The translations under genes and the position numbers were made by a program. Of a stretch of DNA of 64,000 bases, positions 7,682-63,451 are shown piece after piece. The notes under the pieces are model-generated. The model searched no databases and was not told where the DNA came from. It was given only the letters and a program-made list of their open reading frames with translations. The DNA comes from Sclerodactyla briareus. Its lineage: Eukaryota; Echinodermata; Holothuroidea; Dendrochirotida; Sclerodactylidae. The stretch covers positions 1 through 64,000 of the forward strand of contig JAODTK010001054.1 in the NCBI GenBank assembly GCA_026419785.1. The letters run 5' to 3'. Positions within the stretch are counted from its first letter, which is position 1. Every line of letters starts with the position of its first letter.

Positions 7682-21789
<14,108 letters not shown>

Positions 21790-42345: not shown

Positions 42346-42457
42346 ATATGTTATATATACCAACAATGTCCCAAAGTGCGGATCCAGGAGCCTTGCTACC
42401 ACCTAAGAAGTACACTCAAGCGAAAGGGACCGAAGGATCCCCATAAAACGAATAGAG
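42346..42457 (+). CDS. Sulfotransferase exon with 5'-PSB loop
   Basis: After the polypyrimidine acceptor TTTCTTCTTAG the frame reads YVIYTNNVPKCGSRSL. It then slips by one base, and the continuation YHLRSTLKRKGP runs to the donor AGAG|GTGAGC. VPKCGSRSL corresponds to the PAPS 5'-phosphosulfate loop of the family (compare VPKTGSTS in heparan sulfate 2-O-sulfotransferase). Confidence 0.78.
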
Positions 42458-45400
42458 GTGAGCAGAGGCATATATTTTATGCCCGGCAGTCGGAGTGGGA
42501 AACGGTGATAAACGCAAATATTTCGAAACAAACGCGGCCGTGAACAAATATTGTTGGATCAGGCGCGATACCTATAATTTCTCCTTCTCGACCATACAAC
42601 TTGTGGCATGCCATGGTACGTATACTAATACCTCTGAAAACACTCTGGTCTATGACCTGGAATCGAATGAGGAAGACAGCTGCCAGAAAAGAATCAAATG
42701 TATTACTAGATATTTCTTTCCTTCTGGGGGTGATTGATTAGTTTGAAGCGTCCTCTCTCTTGTATGGCCCAGTCAATTTGACTTTGAGTGCGTCTTTAGA
42801 GTGTATCGCTTATACAAGAGTTCAATCAAAAACAAAAAGGTGATTTCGTTATGTCCGAGAGCTAAACCGTTAACACAAACTACTTTGCTCCTGCCGTTTA
42901 TTTTATTCTTTCCTACTTTGTAGAAGGAAAAGCGACACACAGTCAGGGAACTTAGGAGGATTTGAGAGTGTCCCCCCCCCCCACCCTTTTTCTCCCCAAC
43001 CTTTGCTTTGGTCACATGCCCTTCATAGAACTGAACAGGTGAGTCCATGGACCACTATGTCCTTCCTTCACATGTGAACAATGTAGTCTGAAACTTACGA
43101 GACCTACTCTCGATTCAAATTTTTTGAACAGTTTTCTTTTCCTTTTTTTCTTGACGAAGTCAGAGGAATTATGCCGTTAAGAAAGTGTAATGTATGTAAT
43201 GTATGTATGTATGTATGTTGTATGGATGTAGTATGTATGTAGTATGTTGTATGTATGTATGTAGTATGTTGTATGTATGTATGTATGATGTATGGATGTA
43301 GGTATGTATGTATGTATGAAGTATGTATGTTATTATGTATGCAACGTGACGCCTAGCCGTGTTAACAAGATAACTCAAGCCCACCGGGAGGAAGTCATAC
43401 TTGATAAAAATGGGTTTTGCATAAGGATGAGTACATGATCCAGTCGTTTTTTTGACATCAGGGCATAGGCCATTGATGGGCAAAATTCGGAAACATAGAC
43501 TAATCTACTGGCCGTTTTCTGTAGAATGTTAAGTAATCCTATTGCAATGGAAAGTTGTTCATATTATTTCCTAGGCTTTTAGAACGCTTAAGACAAGGTG
43601 CCGTTTTCTATTCGAAGTGGAGAGTTCGTGCATCACCGGCCCCTAAATGTCTTGAAGTGTATTCAAGAGGTTTGCACCATCTTACGCAGATATCGTCATA
43701 AGGGGCCTTCTCACCTGGCCAGACGTCACCAGTGGTGTCCCAAAGGGTCGCTTATGGGTTCGCCTACTCTTCCTTAGGGCATATGTTATTGATCCCGATG
43801 ATTCTGTGCAATCCAGATTTAAAATATCTGTGGACGACACTGAGTGACTTCGAATGATGATTTTGCAAATTGTTCAATAGGACTTTATGCAATGTCCGGC
43901 TATCATAACGCCACGCGCCTTTCAGTTTAAATGGTAAGCATTTCAAGTGGTAAAACTCAGAAACGGGTATTGATTCTTTCTCGGCTTGAATTGAACGCAC
44001 TTTTCCGTTTTTCCCCCTTTGACAAAGACATTGTTGCCCTAAGCTCTGTGTAAGCAGATATGGTAGACCTTACCCTAAATTATGCGTGGCAAGTTTTGAA
44101 TCCGTATTCTCCCAAAGTCTGCTAATTGGGGCAGTCCAAGGATATCTGGGAGAAAAAAGGTGCTGTCCGCGGAGATTTGCCGTATGAGATACAATGCAGC
44201 AAAGGTCTGGGGTCACCACTCTCGCACGTAATATGGTTTGTATCAAAAGTACAAGTATTGAGTTGTACCAGAAGTATGACCTCTTACAGAGTTGTGACCT
44301 TATTACAAAGTGGGTGGTGTTTACCAATGATGAATCAGTTACACGATTATTGTAAACCTTTTGTTCTCTTTTCCGTGATCGGACCCGGTATATATTAACT
44401 GATCGTGATCCAGTGGAGCGGTTCATATCACGTTCTCACTTCGCTCGTAACGTGCAAGGGTGGAATCCTCCGAACCCCGATGTTTTAGCAAAAAGGTAAG
44501 CCAGGCCGCCCGTATACACAATATATAATATAATAGATATAATAGATATATATATATATAATATATATATATATATATAGATATATATATATAATATTAT
44601 AATATATATATATAATATAATATATATTATATATATATATTATATGACATGTGCTGGTTGCTGGAGGTTGGAATTTTACAGCAGAGTTGTGTGTTTATTT
44701 TGCGAATGACGGAGATGCAGTGCAGTCACAACAATTATGTACCACTAGTGATTAGAACTATGGTTAACTTCGGGAACCACCACCCCCTAGTGAGAGTACG
44801 CGAAAATGTGTTCGAAAACAACTTCAGGCCATTCGCCGCCCCCAGTCTAAGGACCTTGTTAACTCACCAGTAATATTACGGTTTACTGGATTACCCACTC
44901 ACTCACTCATGGGTTATGATCCGTCCGACACACAAAACCCTTTAATTTGAATATAGTCTCTCTGGCCCCCCCCGTGCCCCTGTCACGTCTCACCCCTATT
45001 TTCGGAGTCATTGGGACGCCAAATGTAATGAACCCCACAATAATGCCCCATAGTTGCTAAAGCCACTAAGCTCTTTAAACGTCTCTGTATGAATTTTCAA
45101 CCCTGCCCCCCACAGTTAAAGAAAATGCCTTATAACAAATGTCGCCCACCCAAACTCGCTATGTCATCCCAAGTGCGGTCTCCGTACACGTCAATAATAA
45201 AAGAAACTTGAAATGGTCAAAACAGAGCTGGTTAGATTGTTACCCCAGGCGTTTATCGCGCATGATAGTGTTAGTGAAATCCCGTCCTCCCTAAAATGGA
45301 AAACATTTGAGCATAGACGAGATTTTATAGAGATCTTCTGACATGTCACAAAATCCGCCAGCCACGAAAGGATGTCCCACACACAAGGCCATCTTCATTC

Positions 45401-48400
45401 CCCACTGGTGGACACCAGGGGTCTACATTGAGTCTTTAAAAAACGTGGTCTGTCGTGTCAATGCCGCTGGGGGCTCCTCTTTCCAAGGACCCTGCGTAAA
45501 TGGAACAACCTTCTCCAAACAGTGATGGGCTGGGTAAGTGAAAACAATGTTATTCAAGAGGGCAGTGGACACCTGGGTGAGCCAATAGATTCGTCTTCCC
45601 TACACACCAACTATCCTCCATCAAATGCCTTTTGGGGGCGATTTGGAGTACTTCCTCCTGAAGATGAAGACAACTATTTTTTCCTTTTCAGAGCTCGGGG
45701 CGTTCCATTGGAGGAATTTCTTAACAATGAAAGCTACCCAAAGTCAGTTCCTTTCATGACACATTTGTTCTCAGAAGAGCAATATTGGGAGGTGTATCTT
45801 TATCTCACAATAGACATAAATATTATTAGGCCTTATTTAAATGATCAATTGATATCAGTTCGCTACGCATGCTGTTTCAGAATATTCTGTTCGGTCATGC
45901 TTATGCGCCTGTATATGTTAGTGTTGTGCGTATGAAAATAGATGTGTGTCTTTGGTGTGCTGCCTGTGAGCGTGTTCATGTAAATTGTCACTTGTGAACA
46001 AGATAACTCAACCTCACCAGGATGAATGAAGTTCATGCGTTGTATGTGCATTTCCTATTGAAGGCTGTTTCACACTAGTGCGTACGATACAATAAATTTA
46101 CCGGATGCCGAGTTGAAAGTGTTATCTTCAATAAGATTGTTTCACCTTGTGCGCTACGATCCATACGGTCATTTTCATCGTACTATAAATTCATCGGATG
46201 CGATGAATTGCCCAATGCCGTCGTGAACGCCAATTCTTTAAAGAGTATGCGACGACTAAACTGGCTATTGGAGTAACGTTTTTCATGAATAAGTTATCAA
46301 ATGGGGTTTTCGATTAATGCAATTGGGCAGTGACGTCATCCATGACAGACCTTAGCCTCTGACTGACCGTTCGCGGCCGGGCGCAATTCCCCACCAACAT
46401 AGACTTACAGAACCATGATTTTATTTCGAATCGAGGATGCCCTCGGTTATAACAAGTAGCGTGCCAGCGAGGGGATGAGGAGGGGCCGTGTTGTTCGGCG
46501 TCCACCAAGCTCATGTGACACGCACAAGGCAGAAGATATGCGATTGATATTGGAGTGGCCAGGGGAGGAGGCGCGTGGTTGTTCGAGAGGGGGCAGGGGA
46601 GAATTAGATTTCATACGATCTGCCATTCTAGAAATTCTACCGCATTACGAAAGAGGAAGGGGTCGATCCACAGCCTATGCCGTCTTTACGGGAACTTCGC
46701 CTAACCCTCGTGGGAAGAGGTTGGAAAAGAACAACGAGGAAGGCAACAGGGTATTAAGCTAGGGAGGTGGGGGGGGGGCGGCGGGGCCGGCCATAATGCG
46801 ATCGACTCCTAATTAATAGCAGGGTACACAGGTGGAAGCCGTAGGGCATATTGTTACATGACTTTGTCTGGACAGGATAACCAAGTTGAGTGTTTTCCAG
46901 ATATTAAAATGTGCTTCCAAGACTTATATTAGAGACGCCGTCAATGCCCTTCCCCACCCAACTTTTCGTTAAGGGTTTTAACCACCGCCAGCGAAGCCGA
47001 AGCGAAGCGAGGCGAGGCGAACGAGGCCGCGATTGGTAATATAGTAATTAAAACAATGGTCACAAAATCGCTCGGAAGTTTCAACCACCGCCAGCGAGCG
47101 AGGCGAAGCGACTCGAGCTGTTCGCTAGGATCGATCGCACATATGTTGGACCCATTTATTTCGCTCGAATCGCTGAAAGAGCTACACGTGCACGGGATCT
47201 TTTTTGATGTTTCAGTGGCAGGATAAGCAGTAGTGCACGTATGTAGGCTTCTTTGTATGTATGGGTAAGGTTATGATCTACCGATAATTAGGTAAATATT
47301 CAAATGGCAGCGGCAATCAGCACTGAAGAGTTTCCAGAGTTTGGTAAAGCATTGACAAAGGAGGCATGGCGAATAGTAAGTCACCCACACTTCCGGGGGA
47401 TTCTAACCAAAGGTTGTTAGGTGTGAGTACATGCCATAACCACTCTGCCAACGCCCCTGTTCCCATCCTAGCCTTCACCCCAAGTTCCAGTACGTCTGTT
47501 GCCATAGAGGTTCAGTCATTTTGGCGACCGAGATGCGTGGTGCAGTGCAGTAACCAGAGTGTTCTATCGTTGATTTTTCCTTCCACATGACGATACGCAC
47601 ACCACTAACGCCCTCACTGGGACATATGAAAGAAATAGAACAAAATAAAAATAGCCAACCTCCGTTATATACGATGACGAAATAGTTCGTTCGTGCAACT
47701 CAATCGAACGTGTCGGATATACCGGAAATAGTCGTGAAACTTTTCTAGATTCTCTCTCATAGGACCTTTTCGCAATAGCATATTGGCTCTGCACTGTGGG
47801 ATCGTTTTGATGTCATTCTGGGAGACTTGTTCAGGGGGCTGTTTTGTGTTAACATTGCATTGGAAAAAAACGCGAAAATCTAACAAAAACAGGAAAAAAA
47901 ATATTGTCTGTGCATATTCTCTCAAAATTGATTATGTTGTCCCCGATAATTTTATACATCTTTATCGTGACAAATCTGACTAAATGTGCGATTTCGCTAG
48001 TAAAAATCAATTTTATCTGCTTAATTTCCTATTTGGCCTTCCATAGATTCCCATTTGCCCCCATAGCTAGACCACAATGCATTGCGAGAGGCTATTTGCG
48101 AAAAGGCTAATGTCACTCATAAAGTGGTTGTTTCCCCCTATCTCAGCCCCCCCCCCCCCCGAGTGTTGATGTGGTGCACCCACTGTCGTCGTTTTTATAC
48201 GCGCCCACCACAAGATGAATGCAGCTACGCGCTTGTTTTTGTTTTTGTTTTTTTACTATAAAAGCAGCCAACTGAGAACGTAAAATGGACGTCCCATTCT
48301 CTGAGCTGTTATTCGCGTCGCAGTGTGAAAGCACCATCGAGCGGTCACATCGCCAGAGCGATGAAACGATCGCTTCGCTTCGCTTCGCTGGCGGTGTGTA

Positions 48401-49256
48401 TGCACCTTTAGACTGAGGTGGATATTGAATGTGTTCTTGGCTACCTCACTCCGCCGTATCCTTGGATACCGCTGCCGATCTGGGTGTCCAACGATAGGGT
48501 AACCTAGGGAGCGGGACTGGTGAGGTCAGCTGCCTGATTCGTGATCGTCAACTGTGCTTCCATTCCTTGGGCAGATGTTCTCCACGGGACCCCCTTGGGT
48601 CACGGCCGTCGAGCCTTGGCGGCTACGTAGCTTGGCACAACTGCGCGGGTACCTCGAGGAGTTAAGAGGGAGGGAAAAGGCTCAGCCTGTTCGCTTTGGC
48701 TCAGAGGAGGCTAGCTAATTGGAAGCGGCGGGGGTGGATGTGGCTAGGTGCCTTCCAGACATGCGCTCCCGTGAGTGATTGTGCTTTGGGCAAGATGAAT
48801 CGTGAGGAAATTCATGTATGGAATGAAGGTCAGTGTTGTCCAGGAAACAGGTGAATCAGGTGCCCCTAGTGTGATGTCTCCATGACTAGAGAAGAGGTTG
48901 TAACTGTTGTGGCTTGCATTGAAATGGGTCCATGAACACGATTTAGCGCCTCCTACAAGTCCTGAGAAAGACACAGGCTTCAAATTGCTTTGAAATTACA
49001 ATTCTTGATATTCGAGAATTCTGCCGACCAAGCTATTCCACTGCTTGAGGCGACAATAGGGAGAACTTGTAGTTTTCTCAACCAAACAGGTGCTAAATGG
49101 GTAACCTGTGTCAAGGCGCAATTCGGTGCAGCATATACCTACGTTTGTGTGGGACCAACTGGTTGTGTCCAATGACCAGGGTAATTTGTGAAGAGCACTT
49201 GACGGGACACCATGTTAAGTTGCGCTATATGAATTCCAAAAAGTGTAGTATATATT

Positions 49257-49290
<34 letters not shown>

Positions 49291-50628
49291 ATATTATCAA
49301 TGAATCTTCCCTCAAGATCAAACTTTAATTATGACAGTCAAAGATTCTTCGTCTCCCGGTTGAGTGTGTATTTGGGGGTTATTCGTAAGACACAAACTGA
49401 TATTGCTACGGATTTGTAATTATCTTACTTTTTTGTGTCTTAATGTGGCTGACAGTGAAGCGATGAAGATAACCTCGCGAAAACAATGGCGGTGATAGAG
49501 AAGCACTACACATTCATCGGGCTCACGGAGAAAATGAGCGCCACTATGAGACTGTTAGAGGATCTGGTGCCTGACTTACTGAAGGATTGCGCGACAATAT
49601 AAGAGGGCCAGCAACAGGTAGTGGAAAGATACCACAGGATCGCTCAACGTTCAAACCGGAAATGCTAATCATCGCGCAAATACTAGCGCAACACTCGTTT
49701 AACGACGTGGAGGCGGTGCAGAAACAATGTTATCTAGAAGGCCTTATTGCGGGTGGAAGCTACCCAACAATGCAATACTCGTAGGCTCTAGAGGCGTTGG
49801 TGAAGCAGCAATCACTCATTTGATTAGCATGATCTATTGATTAGCATGATCTTTGTGATCTCATATCTGGAGGAAAAGTTTCTCTCAACACATGCGAGTT
49901 GATTTTCTTATATCACCTTTACTGACTATGCAGGTTATTGCTTCCTCATCAGATGACTGGTAGTACAGAAAATAATGAACAGTTACAGCACGTTCATCGT
50001 GTATTCTTTATTTTCTTTAATCATATATTTTGAAGTATCCGACTGACCGTAACATAAATCCTGTTTTGAACGCTCATTTAAAGGATTTAGTATTCTTATA
50101 GTAACAGGAGTCCCGATTTCAATCTGCCAAAAATTAGATTTTTTCCTGCAAAATTGATATTTTGGTATATCTAGCGCTCACAGGGTATGCCCATCGTTTA
50201 CTTGCATAAATGAATAAGTGGCAAAGTTCCTTATTTCTTTTAAGAATTTCAACCTAATCATAAAACACCTCCTGCAAAACGTCTCAGAACCCACTGATCT
50301 CAGTGAGTATAGGCCCGCAAATGTTCTAATTCCACTCTGTATTGCATGTTAGTTCCTTCTATTGATTCATGTTTTCTACAATTTTTTTACAATCCCATTT
50401 CCCTACAGGTGTCAAGCACCACTACGCTACAAAAGGAAGAAACCTCCGTCCGATAATGCTACGTCGATTCTGAAAGGGTATCTCAAATACGATTGTCAAT
50501 TGTACGAATTCATTAAAAGACGCTTCCAAGAAACTTCAGCAAAAGTTGGCGGAAGAAAAAGAGTCTCAAAAAGACCTCTTATTTCTCCCAGCTATTACAT
50601 TCAGAAACACTATGGCAGTTCAGATTAA
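42346..50628 (+). CDS. Heparan sulfate/uronyl 2-O-sulfotransferase-like gene (exons listed separately)
   Basis: Five plus-strand exons together carry the signature order of Golgi 2-O-sulfotransferases, type II membrane enzymes that move sulfate from PAPS to uronic acid residues of glycosaminoglycans. The 5'-phosphosulfate-binding VPKCGSRSL loop comes first, then PVYINLIRDPVERFISR (3'-phosphate site), then a Cys-containing segment, then EKHYTFIGLTEKM, and finally a basic C-terminal exon with LYEFIKRRF. Similarity to uronyl 2-sulfotransferase seems closest by eye. The exon coding for the catalytic-His region (normally RHVHFxxF) was not found between 42.46 and 44.37 kb. The transmembrane/stem exons are also missing, perhaps at 37.4 kb or further upstream. 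Frameshifts in several exons are each explained by single lost bases. An ATTAAA at 51095-51100 could serve as polyadenylation signal. Confidence 0.75.
42458..43180. other. Intron sequence, no recognised element
   Basis: A plus-strand 80-codon frame (42495-42737) has no known domain. A C/CCACCC run lies near 42.97 kb. The missing catalytic-His exon was looked for here and not seen. Confidence 0.4.
43188..43342. repeat. (ATGT)n microsatellite
   Basis: About 155 bp of ATGT units with GTAG and GGATGT variants, directly followed by AACAAGATAACTCAAGCC, the dispersed repeat core discussed in the findings. Confidence 0.95.
43560..43960 (+). mobile_element. LINE reverse transcriptase fragment
   Basis: Across frames the plus strand reads TWPDVTSGVPKG, LLFLRAYVIDPDDSVQSRF and KISVDDTE. 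These correspond to the RT landmarks VTSGVPQGSVLGPLLF, YINDLPDSV and the ADD box (here VDD). This is the palm domain of a CR1/L2/Jockey-type element. Frameshifts and stops make it a dead 5'-truncated copy in an intron of the sulfotransferase gene. Confidence 0.72.
44375..44495 (+). CDS. Sulfotransferase exon with RDPVERFISR (3'-PB) motif
   Basis: Reads DPVYIN, then (after restoring two single C bases) LIRDPVERFISR, then HFARNVQGWNPPNPDVL, to a strong donor AAAAAG|GTAAGCC in phase 2. RDPxxRxxS is the 3'-phosphate-binding signature of PAPS-dependent sulfotransferases. No clean acceptor AG is visible in the pyrimidine tract TTGTTCTCTTTTCCG. A lost base in the acceptor is possible, so the start is approximate. 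Confidence 0.75.
44521..44645. repeat. (AT)n microsatellite
   Basis: About 125 bp of AT dinucleotides, lying in the short intron between two sulfotransferase exons. Confidence 0.95.
44682..44789 (+). CDS. Sulfotransferase exon, Cys-containing segment
   Basis: Acceptor GGAATTTTACAG, then SCVFILRMTEMQCSHNNYVP, LVIRTMVNFGNHHPL, with possible donor CTA|GTGAGAGT. Spacing and content match the family segment ECxxxxxxxC...IPxFCGxHPxC, but the two later cysteines are not seen in this frame. Joining to the previous phase-2 donor needs one restored base. The 3' boundary is uncertain, since the frame stays open to about 44873. Confidence 0.6.
44880..46960. other. Large intron, unassigned open frames
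   Basis: A plus-strand 137-codon frame (45522-45935, with NNESYPKSVPFMTHLF) is protein-like but unrecognised. The GATAACTCAACC repeat core occurs at about 46.00 kb. Two similar GTTTCAC...GTGCG segments at about 46.07 and 46.14 kb resemble transposon termini but lack a partner. Confidence 0.4.
46972..48404. mobile_element. TIR-bounded element with GCGAA-rich ends (Harbinger-like MITE?)
   Basis: ACCACCGCCAGCGAAG followed by CGAAGCGA units begins at about 46.98 kb, and a second direct copy (CACCGCCAGCGAGCGAGG) lies at about 47.08 kb. The inverse, TCGCTTCGCTTCGCTGGCGG then TGTGTATGCACC, ends at about 48.40 kb. The interior has no transposase frame I recognise and contains a SINE-like unit. A GAAAGCACC/TTCGCGTCGCAGTGTG segment near 48.31 kb looks like an inner terminal motif. 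The superfamily is inferred only from the general appearance of such termini. Confidence 0.55.
47370..47460 (-). mobile_element. tRNA-derived SINE-like sequence
   Basis: On the minus strand, TGGCAGAGTGGTTATGGC (A-box side) leads, through a variable loop, to GGTTAGAATCCCC (B box, at about 47396-47407 in window coordinates). It is Leu/Ser-like in length but lacks clean stems. It sits inside the TIR element. Confidence 0.5.
48405..49460. other. Intron sequence
   Basis: A G/C-richer stretch lies at 48.42-48.72 kb with no recognised coding, and an AT microsatellite at 49.25-49.30 kb. An exon joining the Cys segment to the FIGLTE exon may be missing here. Confidence 0.4.
49250..49296. repeat. (AT)n microsatellite
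   Basis: About 45 bp of AT dinucleotides. Confidence 0.9.
49461..49617 (+). CDS. Sulfotransferase exon with FIGLTE motif
   Basis: After an acceptor ...GACAGTGAAG the frame reads DEDNLAKTMAVIEKHY, TFIGLTEKM, SATMRLLEDLVPDLLKD, then needs an indel to continue ARQYKRASN to the donor AACAG|GTAGTG (phase 2). The xVGLTE-xxx-LxLLExxLP segment is diagnostic of the 2-O-sulfotransferase family, where it lies about 80 residues before the C terminus. The acceptor could also be the AG four bases earlier. Confidence 0.8.
50409..50628 (+). CDS. Sulfotransferase last exon and stop
   Basis: Acceptor TTTCCCTACAG, joined in phase 2 to the previous exon. It is open for 73 codons: CQAPLRYKRKKPPSDNATS, then LKYDCQLYEFIKRRFQE, then a K/R-rich tail ending YGSSD and TAA. 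The LxYxxxLYEFIKxRF helix matches the family C terminus (compare MRYEYEFYHYVKEQF in uronyl 2-sulfotransferase). NAT is a potential N-glycosylation site. No frameshift is present. Confidence 0.82.
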
Positions 50629-52911
50629 ATAGAACTGTTCGTCGGCTAGCGGAAAGAACAATTGATTTCAGTTGATCTTTGGCATAAGTGTTGGGAAAAT
50701 GACCTCGTGTGATCCGTGTCGCTCGCAATCAAACAATCCTGGTCCGAATTCCATCGTACCAGACGTTTCCTCTATTCCTAGATGAGTAGGCAATGACTTG
50801 GTCTTCACTCATCGTTCCCCTGGAAGTAGTGTTTAGGGTTTCTGTGGGCTTTAACCATTAGAAGATTTGCTTAAATGTTGGTAATTATTCGACCATGCTC
50901 TATACAAAAGAGTGAATTAGCCTCCTAGATTTTAGGAACCGCTTCCCCTTTTAGTTATTTTAGCAGGCTAAAGTGGAAGACGCGGCGCTGATAAAATGGC
51001 GTTTAATTTTACTCATGAACAGTTATCAGGTCACCCAAAAATGCCCACCCATCGGATCAAAAACATGTTATTACTTTACTCGTTTGCCGTGTTTATTAAA
51101 AAAAAATAGGTGTCGTATCAGTGACTCATAATCAAGAACCCCGCCAGACGTACTTTCGATCTTCGGTTATGGGGGAACCGACGTCGAGTATTTGTTGGGA
51201 GGCGATATTTCCATACTAATGGTATGTAATGTGATGTCATTTGGCAGGCCGCACTGAGGCTTGTCTCTGATGTCACTATTGAAAATGCTAATTCGATATC
51301 GAAACAGATATTAGTCGTAATTATGTATCAAGTGAAACTGTTACCGTTATATCGCGACGAACGAACGAAACCGAAACGGTTTCCGTCGGAATCGTCGATT
51401 ATTCGCGGTATTGCGGGACGATAATTGCCTCTTCAAACCACCACCGGTAGTTTCTAGAAAACTCAACCTCAACAGTCGGGCAAAAATCCACCCAACTCGA
51501 TGGGCCCGTGAGTAACCCCCTTGACGAAGTTTCCATGGAAGGTCAGCTATAAACACTCAATGGTATAATCCAGAGGACATCGCCATAGGCTTATATGTTA
51601 TGATATGCCGGTTGGCTGCGTAATGCAGGTAGTTACTGCCCCATGCGAATGTCATTCCCTTTCTCTTCGTCGTTACATTGTATGAGGAGCAATGCTTTTG
51701 CCAACCTTTTCCGTTCAAGTCTCTATGTCCACTTCAAGCTGCCAGTAGAATCCATGATCTGTCTACTGCTCTCTCCCTCTTACCGTGCTCAACCATTGTT
51801 TTCTTATTCTTTATACAGTGCCATATAACATGTTCGTATACAGTTCCATATAACATGTTCGTTTTCATTGACCCTGTTTGGAAGGGGCCTGAGATTTCTA
51901 ACACCGTTATGGCGGTCAAAACTATAATATATCGTACACCGTAAGGGTGGTGGTTGATATTGATACGATGGCTATCTTATACCCTATTACTCCGCTTGGT
52001 ATATATGTTTCCTATGCTACTGGATAATTATTCACTGGTTACTGTTCGCACTATTCAGGTAATAAATACACCAGTGGGGGTGAACATTGTGGCACATTTT
52101 TTTCTTTTTTTCTTATATAGATTATTTGGATTCCGAAGATCCAAGAATACAAACAATCATGATCAAGAGCCCTATAGAATAATATGAATGTAGTCCTACT
52201 GACTGGCGAGGAACGTACACGGATATCGATCCCGTGCCAGAAACTTGGCGTCGCATTGTTCATGAGGATGGGATATGGATGGACTGCTTAAATTTCAATT
52301 GTCTCATTTAAGTAACGAAACCAAACTAGCCCACCAGGACGTCATTTCTTATTACCCCGAATAATTCTATGATAGGTAGGTCAAGGTTCGAATATTTGCT
52401 GTCGATATGTACCAATTCAGGGGAGCAATCGTCTTCACTCCAGCACACGGTCCGACCATCCTTTTTGACGCTGCATCTGTCTCGATTTGAAACTGAAGTG
52501 GAAAAAAGAAGACAGCATCATTTATAAGCCAGCAAGAATCAGCTGCTGCTTGACAAACATATGTAGTTTCTTTTCAAATGTTGAGAGCGAATTATCAGAA
52601 TGACGACCAGTGTGTTCTGAATGGCAGTGCCGTGCTTTAATTACCGTAGATTTACACGCGCGCCTCTATTGCTGTTTTTTTTTTTCTCTTTCTCTCAAAA
52701 CCGTTCTCATTGTAAAGAAGCTTATGTCATATAAAAGTGCATCCGTCGTTCCTTACCAACTTCGTGACATGTGTGTCCAAATAGAAGCACGGTGTAAATC
52801 AGGAGGTTTGAGTCTGCGTTTTCAACCAGTTCCAACGAATTTGTCGGCGGGGTCGTTCTTGGGCCGCGATTACATTGAATATGTATTATGCAGTTCGTTG
52901 GTAACAATACG
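50629..52911. other. Intergenic space between convergent genes
   Basis: This stretch separates the 3' ends of the plus-strand sulfotransferase and the minus-strand depolymerase gene. It contains ATTAAA at 51095-51100 (plus) and, on the minus strand, ATTAAA at 52636-52641, each a plausible polyadenylation hexamer. No other gene was seen. Confidence 0.45.
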
Positions 52912-53009
52912 TCAACCTGTGCGTATCCACCCAACACAGTGGCGGGTTCCGCGAATCAGTGTGTCAATAAACCGCATGGTGAGTGTTCCCATTCTTTTGT
53001 ATGTCCTTT
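52912..53009 (-). CDS. PHB depolymerase last exon and stop
   Basis: Acceptor ...TTACAACAG joins in phase 1 to the 27-nt exon, making a Glu codon. It then reads RTYKRMGTLTMRFIDTLI and a short tail (CVGWIRTG) to TGA. This matches the family's final helix (YxTKxGxQMxFIxxLI). The length of 98 nt is exactly compatible with phase 1 plus a stop. The tail beyond TLI is diverged, so an alternative end is possible. Confidence 0.6.
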
Positions 53010-56000
53010 CTGTTGTAACGAAACCGGTGAATTCAGTGTATTGTAACTCTATTGTATCCTTATAGGGATGATGCGAGGTATATGTGTCGCATGAAACCAA
53101 CGCCGAGAAAGGATCATTGTTAAAATGGGCCCGCAAACCCTTTAACTATTAACCCTAACCCCTATTAACTTTGTAATCGAATTATTTTCAAAGACATTCA
53201 GAAACCAAATTTTGCACCGTAACTCAATAGTTATTACTCATTCAAGTCTCGGTGGTATTGGCTGTGACTCTGATTTAGTGTTTGCCAGTAATATTACCGA
53301 AGCAGCAACACTCACCGTAATCAGTTCCAGTGTAATCCCCACCTGAAAAAGAACGACACGGAGCATAAGGATTTTTTAAAACCACTGAACCCGGGATAAA
53401 TTCCGGATCATAACCCTCACGATTACGATTCTGATTTGAAGCAATAGACAACCGCATCGTATTTGAAAGAAAAAAATACGACAAATCTTTCGTCTCTACT
53501 AACAGTGGGAGCAATCTACATGCATTTAGTATGCGGTGTGAATAAGTCCCCTAACATAGCTTCCGCTCATATGTTACTATTATGTCCATGTCCTTCTCCC
53601 CTGCATATTTTCATGTTACATTCACGACATGTGTCACCTGGATGCCCTCTAAGGATCTAGGTAGCTAGGTTTATTGAAGTCATAGTATTATTTGCCTATC
53701 ATTTCCCTAAATTGCGACTATGGGGAACATGACTTTTACTGTTTCCTCTAATTTTGTTTCATCAACCACGTTCAAAAAGAATGATGATGCGAGTCGGTAT
53801 TTCCATGGCTTCCCATTATATTATTGAAACTTGAATAATGAATGAAACATGGAAACAGATCGAAACCATCCGAAACTCACTGCTATTCGGGTAAAACTAT
53901 GTTTTTTTGTAATTCTTGTCGGAAAATCAGTGAACCCCTTCACTGATTTTCTGATGATGGATTGGAAGCTATGGGATTCACGACTGCATTATCTTTTTAT
54001 TGTAACAAAAGGACACATTTTACAAACGCTTGAAATTGTTCATTAATTATATGTAAAAACCGTGCATAACCAGATAACATGATCCTCTTACATTACACTT
54101 AATACGTCATTAACTTTCAGTAACTGTAACACAGATCGCGCCTGTAACCTGATGGTTTCCAGACATGGGTGCGTTTCGCGTTCATTTGCTTACTTGGATA
54201 CTCTGCTGCCTTAAATATTCTAGCTAGGAACATCAATTTTGATAGAATGGTGACCAAAAAATTTGTTGTTTTAGTTGACCGTCCTGGCGATTTCAGCTTT
54301 CCATTCCATGACTTCTTTCCTCCGTCATATATGGTCATTTTTCTTCTAATACCGGGGGCTGGATGTTGATAAATCGGAACTGTCTTGTTAGGACGATACT
54401 GTGGATAAAAAGCCCGTACTGGTTCCCCGTGTTAAGTACGTATCCCAATGTTCCGGGGTTAGGTCAAGTCAGCAAGGTGAAACAATCAAATACATTGCGA
54501 ACATTGAGATGTCCTGGAGCTTGGCTTGATATGGTTCGGTTGTAATTCAGTGTGCAGCTTTATTGTTTACTTAAAGCCTAATGGTAATATAATACAGACA
54601 ACCGAGAATATCCGAGTCGATCAAATGAAGACGATTCTAGCCTCGGTGAGTTATTTCGATTCACGCCTGGAATTTGATGATTTTATACTTCACGAATGGG
54701 GGCAAAGGCCGGCATGAACTGTTAAATGTTGCTGCGTTTGTCGCTTGATTACTGGAAAGACGGAAACTGCACATTTCCATTTCCGTTTTTTTTTTTAATC
54801 CTTCATAGTCCTGTTCGTTACATGTTTCTAAGAGTACAGGCTTTACATTGACTCTGTAGAACAAAGGATACCGCGGTCCCCGCGTTATTAGGAAAATTTG
54901 TCAATAGCAATTGTGCCTATTCGCGCACCGCGTGGTTTTTATAGCTAGATTTCGGTATGGGCCTCATTTTTATAATGCACTACAGTATAGACAACGTCAG
55001 TCATATTGACATGACCATTGGCTTTTTAACTAATTGAGCGAACCTCCCTAACACAGTCCGGAAAAATACATTGAACGAATTCCTCATATCAGCAGCTTCA
55101 CAGAAGAATATAGAAATTACTATCTTAGCTGATCAGCTCTCAGATAGTGATAAAAAGAAGATTCCATTTTCTCACCATCCCAACATCCACAGTATCTCGG
55201 AGTAGGGCCTGCCTGGTGGGTAAATTACATATAATACAGTGAGCTCTGCCACCTCGTTGGAACCGGTGTTCTCCGCGTATTCTCCACCCAGGAAATCCTG
55301 TAAATAGATCCAGAAAGAGAGTATGTCTAAGCCCTACGTGTTGTTTGATATACAATTTGAACGATTCGTGAGAGCACGCAACGTCATATATTTTTATTTT
55401 GGTTACTGTTTAGAGTACGCACTTTCCGATGGCGCGGAGTTCGAATAATTTGGTTTCATCGGGTTCGAGAGGCCACCCTGGCATACTTACTAATAACCCA
55501 CGCGGGCGCCAATTCTGGGCGATATTTCATCTTGGGGTGGCTGATTATAATAACAAGTAATCTAATCTAATCGAAGCGCCGAAAACGTTTGTCGCTGAGC
55601 TTTAAAATACATCCTAAAAATTAGACCCTTAGTTCATAAAATGACCCTTCCAAGCCCACCAAACAGTCCTGGAACATTTTCCATTCGGAGCATTCCTATA
55701 CGTTTTCTTGCGATTCATGGTTTTATTGTTGTTATTTGGGGAGTGGATATAAGAGAAACAAACACAATGTTTCGTGTTTTCGAGCGTTCGTGCACTTCGT
55801 TGACGGAAAAAAGACGTTCCGCGAAACACTGTTTTGCAAACGTACATGTTTTGGATTCGAGAAACGAATGCGAACCAAGGGGTTTGGAATGTGTGCTGTG
55901 TGCGTTTACTGCTCCGTGTCTCAATTGTTGTTTAGCTATACACAGACGACTACCATATGGTCGGCGCCCATGGAGCTAGTTCTGGTTCTTGAAGCCGGTA

Positions 56001-59000
56001 TTGCGGTTTATTTGTGTGGACTTCGTTAAGATGGATTGTCGGCATTAAAATAAATCTTGTAAAAACAAAATACTTGCACTCAGCATTTAGATAATTGAAA
56101 ATCAAATTTAATTTTTCACTCATTTTTTTTCCGTTAAAAAAAGATATGATAATAAGGTAGAAAAGTCTTGCTTCAGATTTACCTATAAAAGTAAGCCCCC
56201 CTACGATATTGTGGTCGTAACGGTCATGCAAAATTCGCCGTCGCTTGTTCGCTGAACGCTATGCAAACGACAATCCATCTCTAATTGTTGTGCTCTGCCG
56301 TGTGCGGGCATCATGCGCGGATACCGGAGAACAAGCGCGGAACAAATCCATCCAGCTTTTCTACCGTCCGTGCGCGTTCGGCGTAATCGAAATCGTGCTG
56401 CGATGCGACACTATAGCACGGTCCTGTAAAGTGGCGTTGTAAAAACCTCCCATATCATCAGCGTACAACATCGCCACACAACACTGGGGTTTAGCAATGA
56501 GTGTTGACAATCTCATACAAAGTCATCAGCAGTTTAGATAGACAGCATTGGATCATTACTCTCAGTCTTTGCCCAGCTGTGGTACCCTACCAAGCTCCCT
56601 TGAGGAAACTCGTTTCATCCCGAGGTAAGAACTCTGTTGTGCACTCGGAGAGATTTCTCTCCACCACCTGCCTGATATATATCCAACGCCGTACTCGAAG
56701 TTGGCTGGTTGAGGACACACCATCGCTAATGAGATCTGCGGCCGGCGAGGGATGCCTACGAAGCATTGTTATGAAGAGAAAATATTCTGCTGAATCTAAG
56801 GGGTGCGAATGATTTGATTTTCATTCATAGGCTTATGCCACAAAAACACATATTGTGTGTAACTTTTGTCAGATGAAATATTTTCAACCCGGAATCGTGT
56901 TCCATACCCTTCCGAGTATACTGACGTATAAACGAGACCTATGCTTTGAAGAACTGGGTAGTAGTAGTAGTAGTATAGTAGTAGTAGTAGTAGTAGTAGT
57001 AGTAGGCGCCATTAGATACCGTATAACATGTATTCCTAGGTGCGCCTAGAACAGAATTTACTTTAGTACGTCAACAAATGGAAATTCAAGGGACATAAGT
57101 CTTGTCTGACATAGCTGAATTGCAAAACGCAATCTTTCATAGTGTGGCACAGAAGGTAACCATCGTAACACCTGAATATTTCGGAATAGCTTTATTTTGA
57201 ATGTAGGTCAACTGTTGAAGAAAAACAGGCTGACGTGTAACTACAGTCAATTCATTGACTGCACCGACACACCCCCGCTCTGAAATCAGAATAAGAAAGA
57301 CAATCGAGTTGGTACATACCGCCCTTGGTTACATCCGTGCAAACTCACGTGTACCATGCAGTCTGAAAGAAATAACGGTCAGTATGTTGTAATTCAGTAA
57401 TATCTTAGAAATACAGTTTTTTTTCAGGACAGCGGTAACCATAGCTGTATATTGGCGGCGCCAGCGGGGCAGCACGTACCCCCCCCCCCTCCCGTCTTCG
57501 AGGAACCAACCATAAGAATGAGCTCAGAACAGGTGATGATTGGGTGTGCCGACCTCGTCGGTGTGTATGCGTGGGAGCGTGAACTAATGAAATACCGAGC
57601 AGGGGTTCGAATCCCAGCAGAGTCATACCAAAGACTTCAACAATGGTACCTGTACCTGTTCGGGCAGCACTGTATGGCCCGGTCGCTTGACCTTCACAGC
57701 AGGTGGGCTCTGGCAGTGTCGAGAGAACCCCCCCCCCCCCCCCCCCCCCCTCCCCCGCAAAGAGGCGCTGTTTACAGCGCATGGTCCTAACTTTCCTTTC
57801 CATTTTTTTTTTCTTCGAACCAGGAGTATCCCTGTATATGTGCGCTAGCGCGTCGACAAATTCATCAATACAAAACAAGTTTGACTTACTAGTGCTCCTG
57901 TTTTGACACTGAAGTGGCACGTAAGCAAATCCAATATCATCTAACTGGCGGAGTTGTTACTCGGATGGAATTCTTTCTGTTGAATTCTAGTAGCTACACA
58001 ATAATAGAAAAAAAGTTCGTTCGTACTTAAAAAAAAAATACATCGTCTGACTTTCCGGGTGTCAAAGACCAATGGTCATGTAATTATGCCTGGACATTTT
58101 TTAACTTTCTATTTATTACACTATGACAGCTGAACCCCCATACCGAATTCGAGCCGGTTTGAGTGTACCGATAAGGCACAATCAGCTATTGCAAAAAAAT
58201 GCTCTGTAACATCACTGGGAGAACCGCAGAATCCCCTGTAATACAAAGTCAATAAAAACATTTACTTTCGAAAATCTTATACCAAACAAACCATTAATGG
58301 GATCCGGATAAAAACCTACAAAATCGTTCACAAGATATTAAGAAATTATCTCGATGATTTCTATGTAAACACTTTTTTTGTTTCCATGTTAGCATGGTGC
58401 AACAAATAAGATTTACTGAGTAGGTTCCATGGGCAGCCTTCGTATCATGCCCCCCCCCCCCCGTGATGTCATAGATTCCTCGAATTTCTCAAAAGTATAT
58501 TGAAATGTCTCAACAAAGCAATATGCTAGAACCTTCAAATTTGGAGTGTGGGGTTTTGGTATGCCCTCTATTCACCTGTGCTAGTTTAAAGCAAATCTGT
58601 CACATGACCATTGGCCTTTAAGGAAAACACACTTGATATACAGTAGTTTTTATCATGGAGCTAATATAATAACTGGGGGCACTCGAAGAACTGTTTGTGA
58701 CCACTGACAGGGCTGTGCTATTTCATGTTAGTCCGACACTGTACACTGTAGACGTTCAGAATGTGTGACGAACGTCCGAATGGTGTTGTGAGAATCCATG
58801 GCGCAGACTGACATTGCTTTATGGTATACACTGATACAATTATGCGAACAGTTTGGAAACAACCATTGTCAGCGTTACCCTATTTAGCAAATCGAAGAAC
58901 AAAGCTAAATCATTACAGAAGCGCCGTCGTATAGTGCCAAAATAACGTAAATAATTCAGTTATGAAACTCAATCGCGGCCGGCACCCGGGTTTAATATAC

Positions 59001-62000
59001 AATATCACTGCAGAGCATATCAATATATATTGTTAAGTTCGATGTAAAGGGCGCTGTCAAACGGAACGCCATCTTATAAAATTGCTACGGGTCCGATACT
59101 GCGCTGTCGGATTCACATTAAAGTTTTCAATTGACATCCAACGCAGTTGATGACAGAATGCAGAGAGGATCTGACACTTATTCAGGTAAACAATGAACTA
59201 TATGCTCGAAAGAAATATAATTTGTATATTAAACAATTTGTATTCAAAACATTTTAACGAGAATAAAGCTATGGATTCAGGGAACATATAATTCAACTCA
59301 CCCCAACATTGTCAATGGTATTATATTCGAGGGAACCAGTTTTCTGGAAGATAACAAATTGAAAAGACAGGAGTGGAATGATTGCAGTATAACCTGCCGT
59401 ATCTAACGTCATTGAGAATAGCCTATGATATGAATTACGTCACAGGTGGTCATATATGTTGATGTGTCATTGAACTATTGTATATGTTAAATAATTATCC
59501 TCGATTTTTACTGTAAAAATATAATAATAATCATGCCAGGACCTAACACTAAGTTGAGTTAGTGAACCCACATGTTCACTACGGCCGACTAGCTATCAGT
59601 CAAACCGAACCCCTGCGTTGGGCCATGTACTATAGTTCTCGACATACCTGCAAGCCCGGGCCGTAGATGTGGTCCAAGATCTCGTATGCTTGGTTGTACC
59701 CACAGTTACTGATGTATGGAGTCCTGGACACAGTGTCACACCTATTGCCGTAATTGTCAGTGATCTGAAGTATTATTTAAAGTAAGGAAAACAATAATTC
59801 ATCAGTAACCTTTTCCACCATTGTGTAGAGAGTTAAGAAAGGCATTTTTGGCCAAATAGAGGAGTCAAGTGGGTTAATTGCTGGGGCCAGGAAGCCCGGT
59901 CGCGTCATTTCATCGCATGTGCTCTAATAATAATGTTACACCAATCGCATTGCCTCAAATCGAACACGCAGTATTTTGCAAGACATTGACTTCCCGTCGA
60001 CCATCTCTCATATATTTAGTGTATGGACGTACCCGAACCTCTACAACCGAACCCGAATTTCCGACTGAGATCATCTTCAAACTTGTAATAAATTACCAAT
60101 AGACATACATTGGAATTAATAAATTGGCAGTAGTCAGAATATGAAGGCATTTTGTATTGCACCTATTTGTTTAAGACACGAGACTTCATCAGAACAATGA
60201 ATGATTCCGTGTTTTTTATGGCAACTGGACTGTGCAGGTGGATACAGCACAATTTAGCACTTGCTATTCGATGCTTTGTTCACTCGTCGAACAAGAGGGC
60301 AAGGGGCGCAGGCAGTCCCGTGAACGCTTGGAAAGTCGGAAGTGCGGACAGAAAACAACAGGCAACAAATACCCGGAATTAGAGATGAAGGCAGATTTGG
60401 AAAAATATTGCATGGAATTTGAATCTGAGTCAAGGCCAATCTATTCGCAATAGTGTCACCATGCAGTGAAATGGAATTGTGGCAAACACCGCGGTGACCC
60501 CGCCAAGGTTGGTAGTTGAAGTGAAATTGTGATGGATTTTATCCATAGTGGTCTCAATCCTGGATTTGACAGGTCTATTTTCATATGAAAGGTGGTTTGA
60601 GCAGGGATGTATAGTCGAGCACGGATCTAATACACTTCACCAGTGTGTCCCTTTACTACCCGTCTATCACAAAAGTGGAGACCGGGACCGTCTGGTCGAT
60701 TTCAGGCTTCATTTTCACTTGCGGGCCTTTGCGATGTTACCCTGTGCAGCAATGCTATATGTGCGTAAACCATATTATGAAGCATTCGGCAAAGTTTTCG
60801 TGTTTGATATAATCCAAGCCACAATCGACTGACCTTACTGCAATATGGAACACCAAAACGGTCATTGTTCAGTATTACATCTTGATGCAGTTATCAATTA
60901 TGCGACAACAAATCACTGCCACATAATGACTAAAAATATGTGATCTCATCATGGGAGTATAGTTGTCAGTTGCATAACGGGAAATGATTTTTTTTTTTTT
61001 CTGACCAAAACGTCTTATTCACATAATGAGCGCCGTTTAGGACAACATAGTTAAACTTCTGCAGACAAACATCTGACAATGCAGCCAGTTTGATTAGAAA
61101 GTCATACTGGTTCAGTCCGTTTAGAGCATAAAGACACTATGTGTAGAACTATCGTGCAGGTGACCTAATTCGCATTTCATCCCCTTACCTTTCCTAAGTG
61201 TTGCGCGCCCGTTGATATGCAAATTTCACAGCGCCAGTCTCCATGCTGATTGTATCTCTGGAAGGGTTCGGTTAGGGATTGGAACCACGTTAAAAAAAAT
61301 ACGAAAGTACTCGAAGTGAAAACAAGAAAAAACAGAGTGCCAACATATCTGTCTCTTTAGCCACAACAGAAAAATACTCACGAATGCATGACCCGTCGTC
61401 ATGGAGAATTCTGTCTTGATATTCTCGACACCGATAAACCCGCGATAATATTCCTCCAGTTTGACCATCACACCTGAAAAAAAAATCACACCAGTTACCG
61501 AACACAATATATTTCTGTTCGGTTTAAACAGGATATGCATACCTGAAGAGTAATTTCTTTCAGCACGTGCGAATGATGAACTGGGCCATTCACAAGTTAG
61601 GAACGGATCCCGTCCCTCTTAAAACGCTAAGAAGAGAAAATAAATTCAACATCGATTAGCGGCTAACCAGCATTTCCCTTGTATGGTCAGCCAATGTTTG
61701 CTATTATTTAGACGCTTCGGCTTTCTTCACTAGTGAAAAAAAAATCTGCAGTACAATTGAGGTGATCTCCCAAGTTATCTGATGTAGACTGTATTAACAC
61801 ATCCTCGAGTCGAGCGTGTGGATAAGTGAGTCAATAAATGCATTTTCGAGAGGGTCGGCCAGTGTTTGAACAAGTGAGTGTATATTGACCCTCGTGGCGT
61901 TCATTTAGAACGGAGACGTGACCACCCCAAGCACTCATTTGGTACCTGTTTAGGTCTACCAGTTGAATGGACTAGCTGGCCGCGTGGTACTCGCGAGAGT

Positions 62001-63451
62001 TATCAGGACCCAATCAATTACTTATGTAGGTTCCACCTGCCTGGGAGCCTGTACAGACTGAATAATGTTCCAGGTTGTGGTGAGTAACCGTCGAGGAGAA
62101 AACAGCACATGCGTGTGTATAATGTCTGTGAAACACAACTGAGTAATAATGCGCGAAACGGTAGGTGGTGCTTATATGGCAGAGGCAGAGGCTCCAGAAG
62201 CCTAGTCTCTATGTACGATAGGACGTAGGAATAATCGAAATGGTATGCCATTATGTGACGTCTCCGATCATCAGCACTTTCGTGACCCTCGCAATCCATG
62301 GAATGAACAACTGCCGGTTGTAATATATGAGTAGGCAGTATTTAAGGACGATAGATCAATCGAAAGGCGCTGCCATTAAAGGCGTTAGGATCCCCTCCAC
62401 ATCGGGGGACGTCAAAATAGAGGGCGCACGGTCCTCAAGCAGACAAATATTCACCAACTTGTCAAGTCTAGAGAGTCGACACTTGCTCTTTCGAAGAGGA
62501 ACAACATTTTGAGTGTGCAGCACCTGGTACAACTGTTTGATCAAGTTTACCACTATACAGGTACACCGGTCGCCTCTCATATTGACCGGGTAGTCAATGC
62601 CGGATGTGTCAGAACCCCTCTCGTGATGTGACTTAACCAGGCCACATCGATTCCCTCCGGGGTCGCCATACATGGTCCTACTGCTGTAGATAGATCGCCT
62701 TGGGCACAGTAGTACGGCCCTTGAATAAGAATGAAAATGAAACAAGAGAGACTTACGATCAACCAAGATCCCATGTAGATTCGCCTTTTGTTGGCATCAA
62801 AACTTTTTCACCTTGATAACCTTAATATCTTTATTATTATTATCAGATTATTATTAAATTGCAAACCATGAACAAAATCCAACAAGGGAAAACAGCTAGG
62901 CTCATCACATAAATACTTTTTGAATTTGTGAATGATTAGTATCAACGACACTACGAACAATTTACTTGTCCACCCTTGTCAACTTACGTGTACAACAAAG
63001 AAGTTTTATATGTTCATTCTGACGAATAAAGAAGGTTCAATATTTCAACACCTCCGAATCGGAAATCTATTGTTGTTGTTGTCAGTCATGTCAATTGCCA
63101 ATTCCTTGGTGAGAGTTATAATGTAATATTGAAAAAAAGACAGAAACTCCCTGGTGGAAACCACCTATTGCAATGGTCGTCAAAACATAAGCTAAGGTTT
63201 GGGGACGGGCGGCCCACAACACGCCACGGATGCCGTACTTTTACTCATGCCATTTTTAGTAAACACAATCACCTCCATTATATAGTTGATTTTGTTTCAT
63301 TACACTTAGTGAACTAGTCGCGCAATTACCTCCGGCCACTACTCCAGCACCCTTGAATGATTCTGAGAAGCCCACATGGAGCTGTACAGCCATATATCCA
63401 CCAGATGAAAGTCCGCTGACTGATACCTGATCCTATCGGCCCCATATCCAC
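52912..63451 (-). CDS. Poly(3-hydroxybutyrate) depolymerase, circularly permuted type (nine exons; 5' end missing)
   Basis: The minus strand carries, in order, every landmark of the single-domain PHB depolymerase family (Esterase_PHB-like alpha/beta hydrolase). These are VSVSGLSSGGYMAVQ (nucleophile Ser, near the N terminus), GPYYCAQGDL, VYLYSGKLDQTVVPG (acid Asp), MTTGHAF (His), TDNYGNRCD, YNQAYEILDHIYG, a linker, CMVHVSLHGCNQG (oxyanion-hole Cys), then CGCWDG and GDYTGTDY. The enzyme hydrolyses ester bonds of the bacterial storage polyester PHB and is normally secreted. The readable exons encode about 305 residues, close to the roughly 320 of the mature fungal enzyme, so only the signal peptide and about 20 residues should be missing upstream. 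Splice phases agree at all eight junctions once about seven single-base indels are allowed. Alternatives such as a feruloyl esterase-type relative are less likely given the HGC and GCWD motifs. Confidence 0.88.
53316..53342 (-). CDS. PHB depolymerase 27-nt microexon
   Basis: Acceptor GTTCTTTTTCAG, then a 27-nt exon encoding (G)GDYTGTDY, then donor G|GTGAGTG. Phase 1-1, no frameshift. It continues the CWDG motif of the previous exon to the Y-T-G-x-D-Y segment that follows GCWDWWGYTG in bacterial family members. Gene predictors are likely to miss it. Confidence 0.72.
55176..55297 (-). CDS. PHB depolymerase exon, GCWD substrate-binding region
   Basis: Acceptor ...TCTATTTACAG, then DFLGGEYAENTGSNEVAEL, TVLYVIYP, AGPTPRYCGCWD and donor G|GTGAGAAA. 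It corresponds to family segment YNEWAExNNIIVLYPQA...NPxGCWDWWGY. Starting in the phase left by the previous exon needs one extra G at the acceptor, and one surplus base lies in the CCACCAGGC run. The net length is nevertheless correct. Confidence 0.78.
55400..55460 (+). mobile_element. tRNA-like SINE head, weak
   Basis: GGTTACTGTTTAGAGTACGC followed at tRNA-like spacing by GAGTTCGAATAA (B-box-like). It is partial and lies in a depolymerase intron. Confidence 0.35.
55480..56950. other. Depolymerase intron, no recognised element
   Basis: Several overlapping plus-strand frames at 55.64-56.03 and 56.50-56.81 kb show no domain. A GC-rich stretch lies near 56.23-56.44 kb. Confidence 0.4.
56958..57006. 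repeat. (TAG)n microsatellite
   Basis: Trinucleotide TAG tract of about 48 bp, the same unit as in the tracts near 20.4 and 21.4 kb. Confidence 0.9.
57320..57362 (-). CDS. PHB depolymerase 43-nt exon with HGC motif
   Basis: Acceptor GTTATTTCTTTCAG, then (N)CMVHVSLHGCNQG, then donor GGCG|GTATGTACC. It begins in phase 1 and ends in phase 2, both fitting its neighbours. The Cys of HGC corresponds to the oxyanion-hole cysteine of the fungal PHB depolymerase (Cys250 in Penicillium funiculosum). No frameshift is present. Confidence 0.82.
57550..57630 (+). mobile_element. tRNA-derived SINE-like sequence
   Basis: CGTCGGTGTGTATGCGTGGG (A-box side) followed by GGGGTTCGAATCCCAGC (perfect B box and T-stem-like palindrome). 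The acceptor stem does not close. It lies in a depolymerase intron, in inverse orientation to the gene. Confidence 0.5.
57728..57756. repeat. Poly-C run
   Basis: More than 20 C with few interruptions. Long C/G runs occur repeatedly in the window (25.09, 27.12, 32.31, 41.26, 42.16, 48.15 and 58.45 kb). Confidence 0.9.
57890..57993 (-). CDS. PHB depolymerase linker exon
   Basis: Acceptor ...ATTGTGTAG, then LLEFN, QKEFHPSNNSAS and LDDIGFAYVPLQCQNRS, with donor CACTA|GTAAGTC. It matches the family pattern GxLxxFDQxEF...LDxxGYVYVPxxC. Two single-base losses (a C in AACCAG and a T in AGTTTA) are needed. Adding them turns 104 nt into the 106 nt required to go from phase 0 to phase 1. Confidence 0.78.
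58000..59640. other. Depolymerase intron, no recognised element
   Basis: AT-rich, with a poly-C run at about 58.45 kb. No repeat family or coding sequence was recognised. Confidence 0.4.
59648..59764 (-). CDS. PHB depolymerase exon, TDNYGN / YEILDHIYG
   Basis: Acceptor ...AATACTTCAG, phase 0, 39 codons: ITDNYGNRCDTVSRTPYISN, CGYNQAYEILDHIYGPGLQ, donor CAG|GTATGTCG, phase 0. It is intact. The motif is nearly invariant in the family (FPTDNYGNxCxxxxxPYIxNCxYDxAGExLxxIYG). Confidence 0.9.
59800..61370. other. Depolymerase intron, no recognised element
   Basis: Plus-strand frames (59878-60102, 60152-60453, 60548-60832) lack domains and run against the gene's strand. Confidence 0.4.
61382..61473 (-). 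CDS. PHB depolymerase exon with catalytic His
   Basis: Acceptor TGATTTTTTTTTCAG, phase 1, then (G)VMVKLEEYYRGFIGVENIKT, EFSMTTGHAF, and donor TTC|GTGAGTAT, phase 0. It is intact. H of GHAF aligns with the catalytic histidine of the family (EHAFPTDNYG), and the next exon supplies ITDNYG directly. Confidence 0.87.
61500..62520. other. Depolymerase intron
   Basis: No recognised element on either strand. Confidence 0.4.
62524..62719 (-). CDS. PHB depolymerase exon with catalytic Asp
   Basis: Acceptor ...TTCTTATTCAAG, phase 1, then GPYYCAQGDLSTAVGPCM, ATPEGIDVA, and one base short at the VK junction. After SHHERGSDTSGIDYPVN comes MRGDR, again one base short, then VYLYSGKLDQTVVP and G|GTGCTG. The Asp of SGKLD is the acid of the triad. 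The exon is 196 nt. The two missing bases make the expected 198. Confidence 0.84.
62780..63320. other. Depolymerase intron
   Basis: A short TTATTA run lies near 62.83 kb. Otherwise nothing was recognised. Confidence 0.4.
63330..63451 (-). CDS. PHB depolymerase exon with lipase box GLSSGG
   Basis: Acceptor GTCATTTGCAG, phase 1, then GGYGADRI, a one-base slip, then VSVSGLSSGGYMAVQLHV and GFSESFKGAGVVAGG to donor G|GTAATTGC. GLSSG is the lipase-box pentapeptide, with its middle Ser as nucleophile. The exon is 122 nt, and one restored base gives the expected 123. The exon with the signal peptide was not found between here and the window edge. Confidence 0.86.

Follow-up and report, generated by a model that had tools for sequence, protein, structure and literature searches.

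A predicted type 2 poly(3-hydroxybutyrate) depolymerase gene in the sea cucumber Sclerodactyla briareus and its relatives among animals

A 64000-base stretch of the Sclerodactyla briareus genome (bases 1 to 64000 of contig C1048, here called the window, from an assembly of 319 Mb in 3171 contigs) carries an intron-rich, minus-strand gene of the poly(3-hydroxybutyrate) (PHB) depolymerase family. Judged from its sequence, the product is predicted to be an esterase with a single domain that belongs to the extracellular type 2 short-chain-length PHA depolymerases. We consider it probable that this is a nuclear animal gene for a type 2 PHA depolymerase that is intact, secreted into the gut, and used to digest bacterial PHB. 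On the trees presented below, the gene appears to have been in the animal line long before sea cucumbers.

Ten coding exons, 923 bases in total, run from 63451 down to 52435 on the minus strand and are separated by nine complete introns, all GT-AG, a count that is partly by construction, as the exon boundaries were set by hand and picked to fit GT-AG ends. The preliminary description had proposed nine exons and about eight introns; its intron-rich minus-strand gene stands, and its count gives way to the one reported here. The motifs that it quoted lie on the minus strand and occur in order along one homologue, the Apostichopus japonicus protein P0001, and a translated comparison with animal relatives lines the motifs up in order along one gene. 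Exon 2 (63330 to 63451; GYGAD..DQVSVSGLSSGGYMAVQLHV..VVAG) holds the lipase box GLSSG, with the catalytic Ser codon at 63408-63406 and one frame break near 63434. Exon 3 (62524 to 62719; PYYCAQGD..GIDYPVNM..VYLYSGKLDQTVVP) holds the catalytic Asp codon at 62542-62540 and has two frame breaks, and exon 4 (61382 to 61473; VMVKLEEYYRGFIGVENIKTEFSMTTGHAF), in an unbroken frame, holds the catalytic His codon at 61390-61388. Exon 5 (59648 to 59764; ITDNYGNRCDTVSRTPYISNCGYNQAYEILDHIYGPGLQ) is also unbroken, and 31 of its 38 aligned residues are identical to those of A. japonicus. The weakest of the ten is the probable exon 6 (59302 to 59343; KTGSLEYNTIDNVG), which was placed by splice sites and phase, not by similarity, has no usable alignment, and falls in a variable part of the family. 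Exon 7 (57890 to 57993; LLEF..QKEFHPSNNSA..LDDIGFAYVPLQCQNRST) has two frame breaks, and exon 8 (57320 to 57362; CMVHVSLHGCNQG) is unbroken and encodes the oxyanion-hole His-Gly-Cys, the His codon being at 57339-57337. Exon 9 (55176 to 55297; DFLGGEYAENTGSNEVAELTVLYVIYPPG..GCWD) has one frame break near 55207, and the phases of its ends imply further ones.

At the 3' end, exon 10 (53316 to 53342; GDYTGTDY) spans 27 bases, with only six residues aligned, and the terminal coding exon 11 (52435 to 52492) ends in DRVLE and a stop codon in a disturbed frame. The preliminary description had put the lowest exon near 52912-53145, where no match was found; the better final exon at 52492-52435 lies outside the interval it gave. 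This site scored highest in all five tail-peptide scans of 40000-53420 (23 to 34, against 13 to 21 for the runner-up), and the best score in a control region was likewise 13 to 21. At the 5' end, P0001 has a hydrophobic N-terminal stretch; no exon 1 with a signal peptide was found for the window gene between 63455 and position 80000 of the contig. Scanning for hydrophobic starts gave three candidate rows at two places, none of which was retained. Long G runs occur on the minus strand at 57728-57750 and 58450-58462, within two of the introns, and are a possible cause of local assembly trouble.

Membership in the PHB depolymerase family, as first proposed from the motifs, was supported when the exon translations were joined with X and searched against proteins. 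The best match among 1105 proteins was P0001, annotated as poly(3-hydroxybutyrate) depolymerase-like (53% identity over 100% of the joined query, E = 4.3e-80), and the same query matched the PHB depolymerase PDB 2d80 at E = 2.1e-22. P0001 itself matches 2d80 over nearly its whole length (E = 1.8e-47). The GLSSG Ser, the KLDQ Asp, and the TGHAF His align with those residues of the 2d80 chain that we take to make up its Ser-Asp-His triad. These residues lie in exons 2 to 4 and are followed by LHGC in exon 8, which is the type 2 motif order. According to PMC2666664, an oxyanion hole C-terminal to the triad marks the type 2 catalytic domain, the two are in opposite order in type 1, and the x1 residue of the GxSxG lipase box is hydrophobic in these enzymes, a rule that the Leu of GLSSG in exon 2 fits. 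Type 1 PHA depolymerases and the Pfam family PF10503 have the lipase box in common with the window gene but the opposite order of oxyanion hole and triad. The enzyme of 2d80/2d81, from Penicillium funiculosum as given in PMC2666664, shares the type 2 Ser, Asp, and His and the late HGC with the window gene; it is fungal, has a long branch, and lies outside the animal clade described below.

Against the NCBIfam type 2 model NF050059, the window pieces, with their X positions and missing ends, score 274.6 bits over model positions 10-287 of 305 (cut-off, 280), and the animal relatives score 379.5 (Apostichopus P0001), 361.6 (Acanthaster), and 371 bits (Spea). Type 1 models match the window pieces weakly, at 60.6 and 42.4 bits against a cut-off of 150. 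The bacterial extracellular type 2 short-chain-length PHA depolymerases described by NF050059 share the model and the active-site motif order with the window gene; several of the bacterial members listed have extra domains, such as fibronectin type III, whereas a single domain is predicted here. The search against Pfam Esterase_PHB (PF10503) that the preliminary description asked for gave no match, either for the window pieces or when the genome was searched exon by exon. This Pfam model is too insensitive and is a poor yardstick for the window gene: with a cut-off of 23 bits, it gives 27.1 for P0001, 28.9 for P0029, and 19 for P0010.

Digestion of bacterial PHB, the use that the preliminary description had suggested, is the best explanation of these sequence features. 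The enzyme would be secreted into the gut, where its serine, with the help of His and Asp, would attack the ester linkages of PHB, whether its bacterial source is ingested or resident, and the resulting 3-hydroxybutyrate would be absorbed and burned by the animal; in this scheme, gut expression is taken from reports on a relative only and the chemistry from family membership. PMC3735544 reports that in A. japonicus, 14 days after evisceration, a polyhydroxybutyrate depolymerase-like transcript is down relative to normal intestine (log2, -7.35; FDR, 8.97E-45). It ranks fifth in the top ten down-regulated genes of day 14, listed together with alpha-amylase, preamylase 1, Rp2 lipase, and pancreatic triacylglycerol lipase, and it is mentioned once in the main text of that paper, so it is absent from the other top-ten tables. 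We tie this transcript of PMC3735544 to the window gene by its label, with orthology assumed. PMC4764845 refers to an EST from the intestine for a gene of this kind (JK730361.1) and suggests that hosts may feed on bacterial PHB. An assay of an animal member on PHB was not met in the available parts of PMC4764845 and PMC3735544.

An active enzyme of the same fold could have a main substrate other than PHB, such as other polyesters, short 3HB oligomers, or dietary esters. The name PHB depolymerase derives solely from similarity, a feruloyl esterase is the next PDB match once chains of the PHB depolymerase family are set aside (E = 0.088 for the window and 3.9e-06 for P0001), and the animal clade stands apart from the rows of bacteria and fungi. 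A different main substrate nevertheless seems unlikely to us, although it deserves some weight, given that the three animal members above score far beyond the 280 bits that the PHA depolymerase model sets as its cut-off (379.5, 361.6, and 371) and that the hydrophobic Leu of GLSSG fits the lipase-box rule in PMC2666664.

Under the preferred reading of an intact gene for PHB digestion, the frame breaks in the window gene would be errors of assembly. Frameshift-aware alignment to the A. japonicus protein, with exons 6, 10, and 11 partly aligned, gives 6 frameshifts over 878 aligned bases; additional, uncounted frame breaks in exons 9 to 11 follow from exon lengths and phases, and exons 4, 5, and 8 have none. 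P0001 is an uninterrupted protein, whereas the window frame is broken as assembled. The frame breaks might be real and the gene an old PHB depolymerase gene that has lost its function, as could be argued from the number of frameshifts and the further ones implied by exon phases, from the long end branch of the window (0.72 against 0.23 for P0001 in the 66-row tree), and from the single locus: in a search of the assembly in which the best candidates were scored, we found no second or allelic copy, including one with a different indel pattern. A pseudogene is nonetheless improbable in our judgment, as conserved genes are broken at a similar rate in the same assembly, nine GT-AG introns can be drawn, the triad and oxyanion residues are retained, and the frame matching the homologue contains no stop codon in the frameshift-aware alignments to the A. 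japonicus protein. Neutral decay with so many indels should also carry many substitutions, which counts further against a pseudogene.

The comparison with conserved genes rests mainly on actin. The window gene has 6.8 frameshifts per kb, against 4.9 per kb in actin copies B and C of the same assembly (9 in 1850 bp), a rate drawn from 7 of the 11 actin alignments and including two overlapping copy B stretches, one of which (226 bp, one break) has a query that starts partly out of frame and whose exclusion leaves 8 in 1624 bp. In copies B and C, 556 of the 617 aligned residues are identical to the queries, which were drawn mostly from a third copy (copy A). Left out of the rate were one copy A alignment made with that questionable query (2 in 229 bp), together with three actin-like stretches with 7, 7, and 9 frameshifts in 386, 392, and 409 bp, which may be pseudogenes or bad assembly and which, if pseudogenes, would lend some weight to the same reading of the window gene; all 11 alignments pooled give 34 in 3266 bp. 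One HSP70 exon of the assembly has 3 frameshifts in 272 bp; four histone matches were left out of the control. Because the actin copies in the same assembly are also broken, assembly error is likelier than a pseudogene as the cause of the frame breaks. The actin-like stretches with 7 to 9 frameshifts lie at C2088:1624-1959, C2088:15017-15401, and C2792:288580-288756. Conserved actin and HSP70 exons of the assembly are spread over several frames (e.g., C1260:170309-170820, C2792:267460-267940, and C2424:94846-95132), and broken genes in this assembly need to be read with this frame splitting in mind.

Relatives of the window gene are found across animals. The best 120 of the 1105 proteins from the first search were listed, as were the best 120 of 3356 proteins that a profile search, seeded with 12 relatives, found among 8000 scored candidates. 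The echinoderms among the matches listed are Apostichopus, Patiria, Asterias, Strongylocentrotus, Lytechinus, and Anneissia, with Acanthaster from the first protein search; the hemichordates and tunicates among them are Ptychodera, Glandiceps, Ciona, and Styela. Also among the matches listed are the sponge Amphimedon, Artemia (as a hypothetical protein), and over a dozen amphibian species, and Em0020g205a is presumably a sequence of the sponge Ephydatia. Amphibians are the sole vertebrates among the names listed, and at least four frogs (Rana temporaria, Rhinophrynus, Bombina, and Leptodactylus fuscus) have two or three entries each. The Artemia franciscana entry (P0182, hypothetical protein, partial) is the only arthropod among the named matches listed; transfer, contamination, or a relic are all possible for it. 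The preliminary description had treated such an enzyme as unexpected in an animal, an impression that dissolves with so many animals among the relatives listed and with two sea cucumber papers that already report one from the gut (PMC4764845 and PMC3735544).

Phylogenetic analysis with bacterial, fungal, and animal rows, as asked for by the preliminary description, placed the window gene with animals (support, 99/93 in one tree and SH-aLRT 88 in another). The first tree has 66 rows (36 named rows, 28 without an organism name, the window, and the 2d80 chain) and a midpoint root for drawing only. In it the window pairs with A. japonicus P0001 (100/96) and belongs, along with both Apostichopus rows and three unnamed ones, to a set of six rows (99/98). 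This placement makes a sea cucumber the most likely source of the window; a search of the assembly for COX1 gave no match. A 44-row clade (99/93) comprises all 24 named animal rows, 19 unnamed rows, and the window; none of the 10 named bacterial rows falls inside it, and the amoebozoan and the fungus are outside as well. Its nearest outgroup is a three-row set that includes Cavenderia, which we take to be an amoebozoan. The second, quick tree has 196 rows (221 proteins minus 26 amphibian rows and one A. japonicus variant, plus the window and 2d80), with all rows but one cut to 420 residues and again a midpoint root. All 22 animal-labelled rows fall in one 56-row clade (SH-aLRT, 88) with no bacterium-named row inside; of its 33 rows without an animal label, one belongs to Styela and the rest lack an organism name. 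The Artemia row sits beside sea cucumber rows in the 196-row tree (83) and beside amphibians and unnamed rows in the 66-row tree (82/87), and with its placement differing between the two trees its position is unsure.

The surroundings of the gene are those expected from the earlier account in one respect, the HYR genes in the same window. Four of six candidate open reading frames pass the Pfam HYR cut-off (64.6, 63.4, 59.7, and 32.9 bits), one falls just under it (19.6), and one is unmatched. These HYR-domain exons lie at 7685-17311 on the minus strand and are perhaps parts of one long HYR gene. The sulfotransferase genes also reported there were sought among four open reading frames picked as possible candidates, none of which matches any Pfam family; our picks may differ from those of the preliminary description. 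The frame at 45432-45932 was rejected as a sulfotransferase, with neither a Pfam family nor a homologue found.

A bacterial sequence, whether a contaminant or a recent transfer with later intron gain, is very improbable. In its favor are the many bacteria that have the family and the plasmid genes that match a short N-terminal piece at as much as 65%; against it, the gene has introns throughout, shares its window with HYR exons, nests beside A. japonicus, and lies in an animal clade with no named bacterium in either tree. The introns and HYR neighbors lead us to reject contamination, and together with the place beside A. japonicus they uphold the earlier view of a eukaryotic gene. The N-terminal piece in question has 68 residues, includes the lipase box, which is well conserved in the family, and when searched alone finds bacterial plasmid genes in 28 records, with at most 65% over 52 residues, so short pieces cannot tell animal from bacterium. 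Since the animal relatives form one clade from which all 10 named bacterial rows are absent, we see no sign of recent transfer, and neither tree favors a recent lateral transfer into this animal. On these midpoint-rooted trees, lateral transfer, if any, would have to predate the sampled animals, including sponges. The gene may even be older than animals, because the nearest sampled outgroup includes an amoebozoan. A more tentative proposal, which we hold at somewhat under even chances, is that one PHB depolymerase was inherited from before the sponge split, lost in many lines (losses that we read from the names listed), and retained by sponges, echinoderms, hemichordates, tunicates, and amphibians, which would use it as a gut enzyme of their own to feed on a bacterial storage polymer, with no need of microbial enzymes.

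The window gene is real, the family has already been named in animals, and the proposed role is already in print. The closest known system is the A. japonicus poly(3-hydroxybutyrate) depolymerase-like set (P0001, P0025, and P0037; EST JK730361.1), which has the same family and motif order; P0001 is 61% identical to the window over 277 tree columns and is its sister in the tree. A. japonicus has at least two distinct sequences, whereas one locus was found in the S. briareus assembly. Among the top-ranked papers of literature searches that covered few subscription journals and no bioRxiv preprints, none dealt with an animal-wide clade, which speaks only weakly for its absence from the literature. 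Of the two, the clade of animal proteins is of more interest than the single gene, and through it the origin, loss, and gut use of the enzyme become testable with existing genomes and recombinant proteins. PHB is a common bacterial carbon store that deposit feeders could exploit directly with a depolymerase encoded in their own genomes. Such an enzyme would also be relevant to the feeding of PHB in aquaculture and to the handling of PHA bioplastics by animals.
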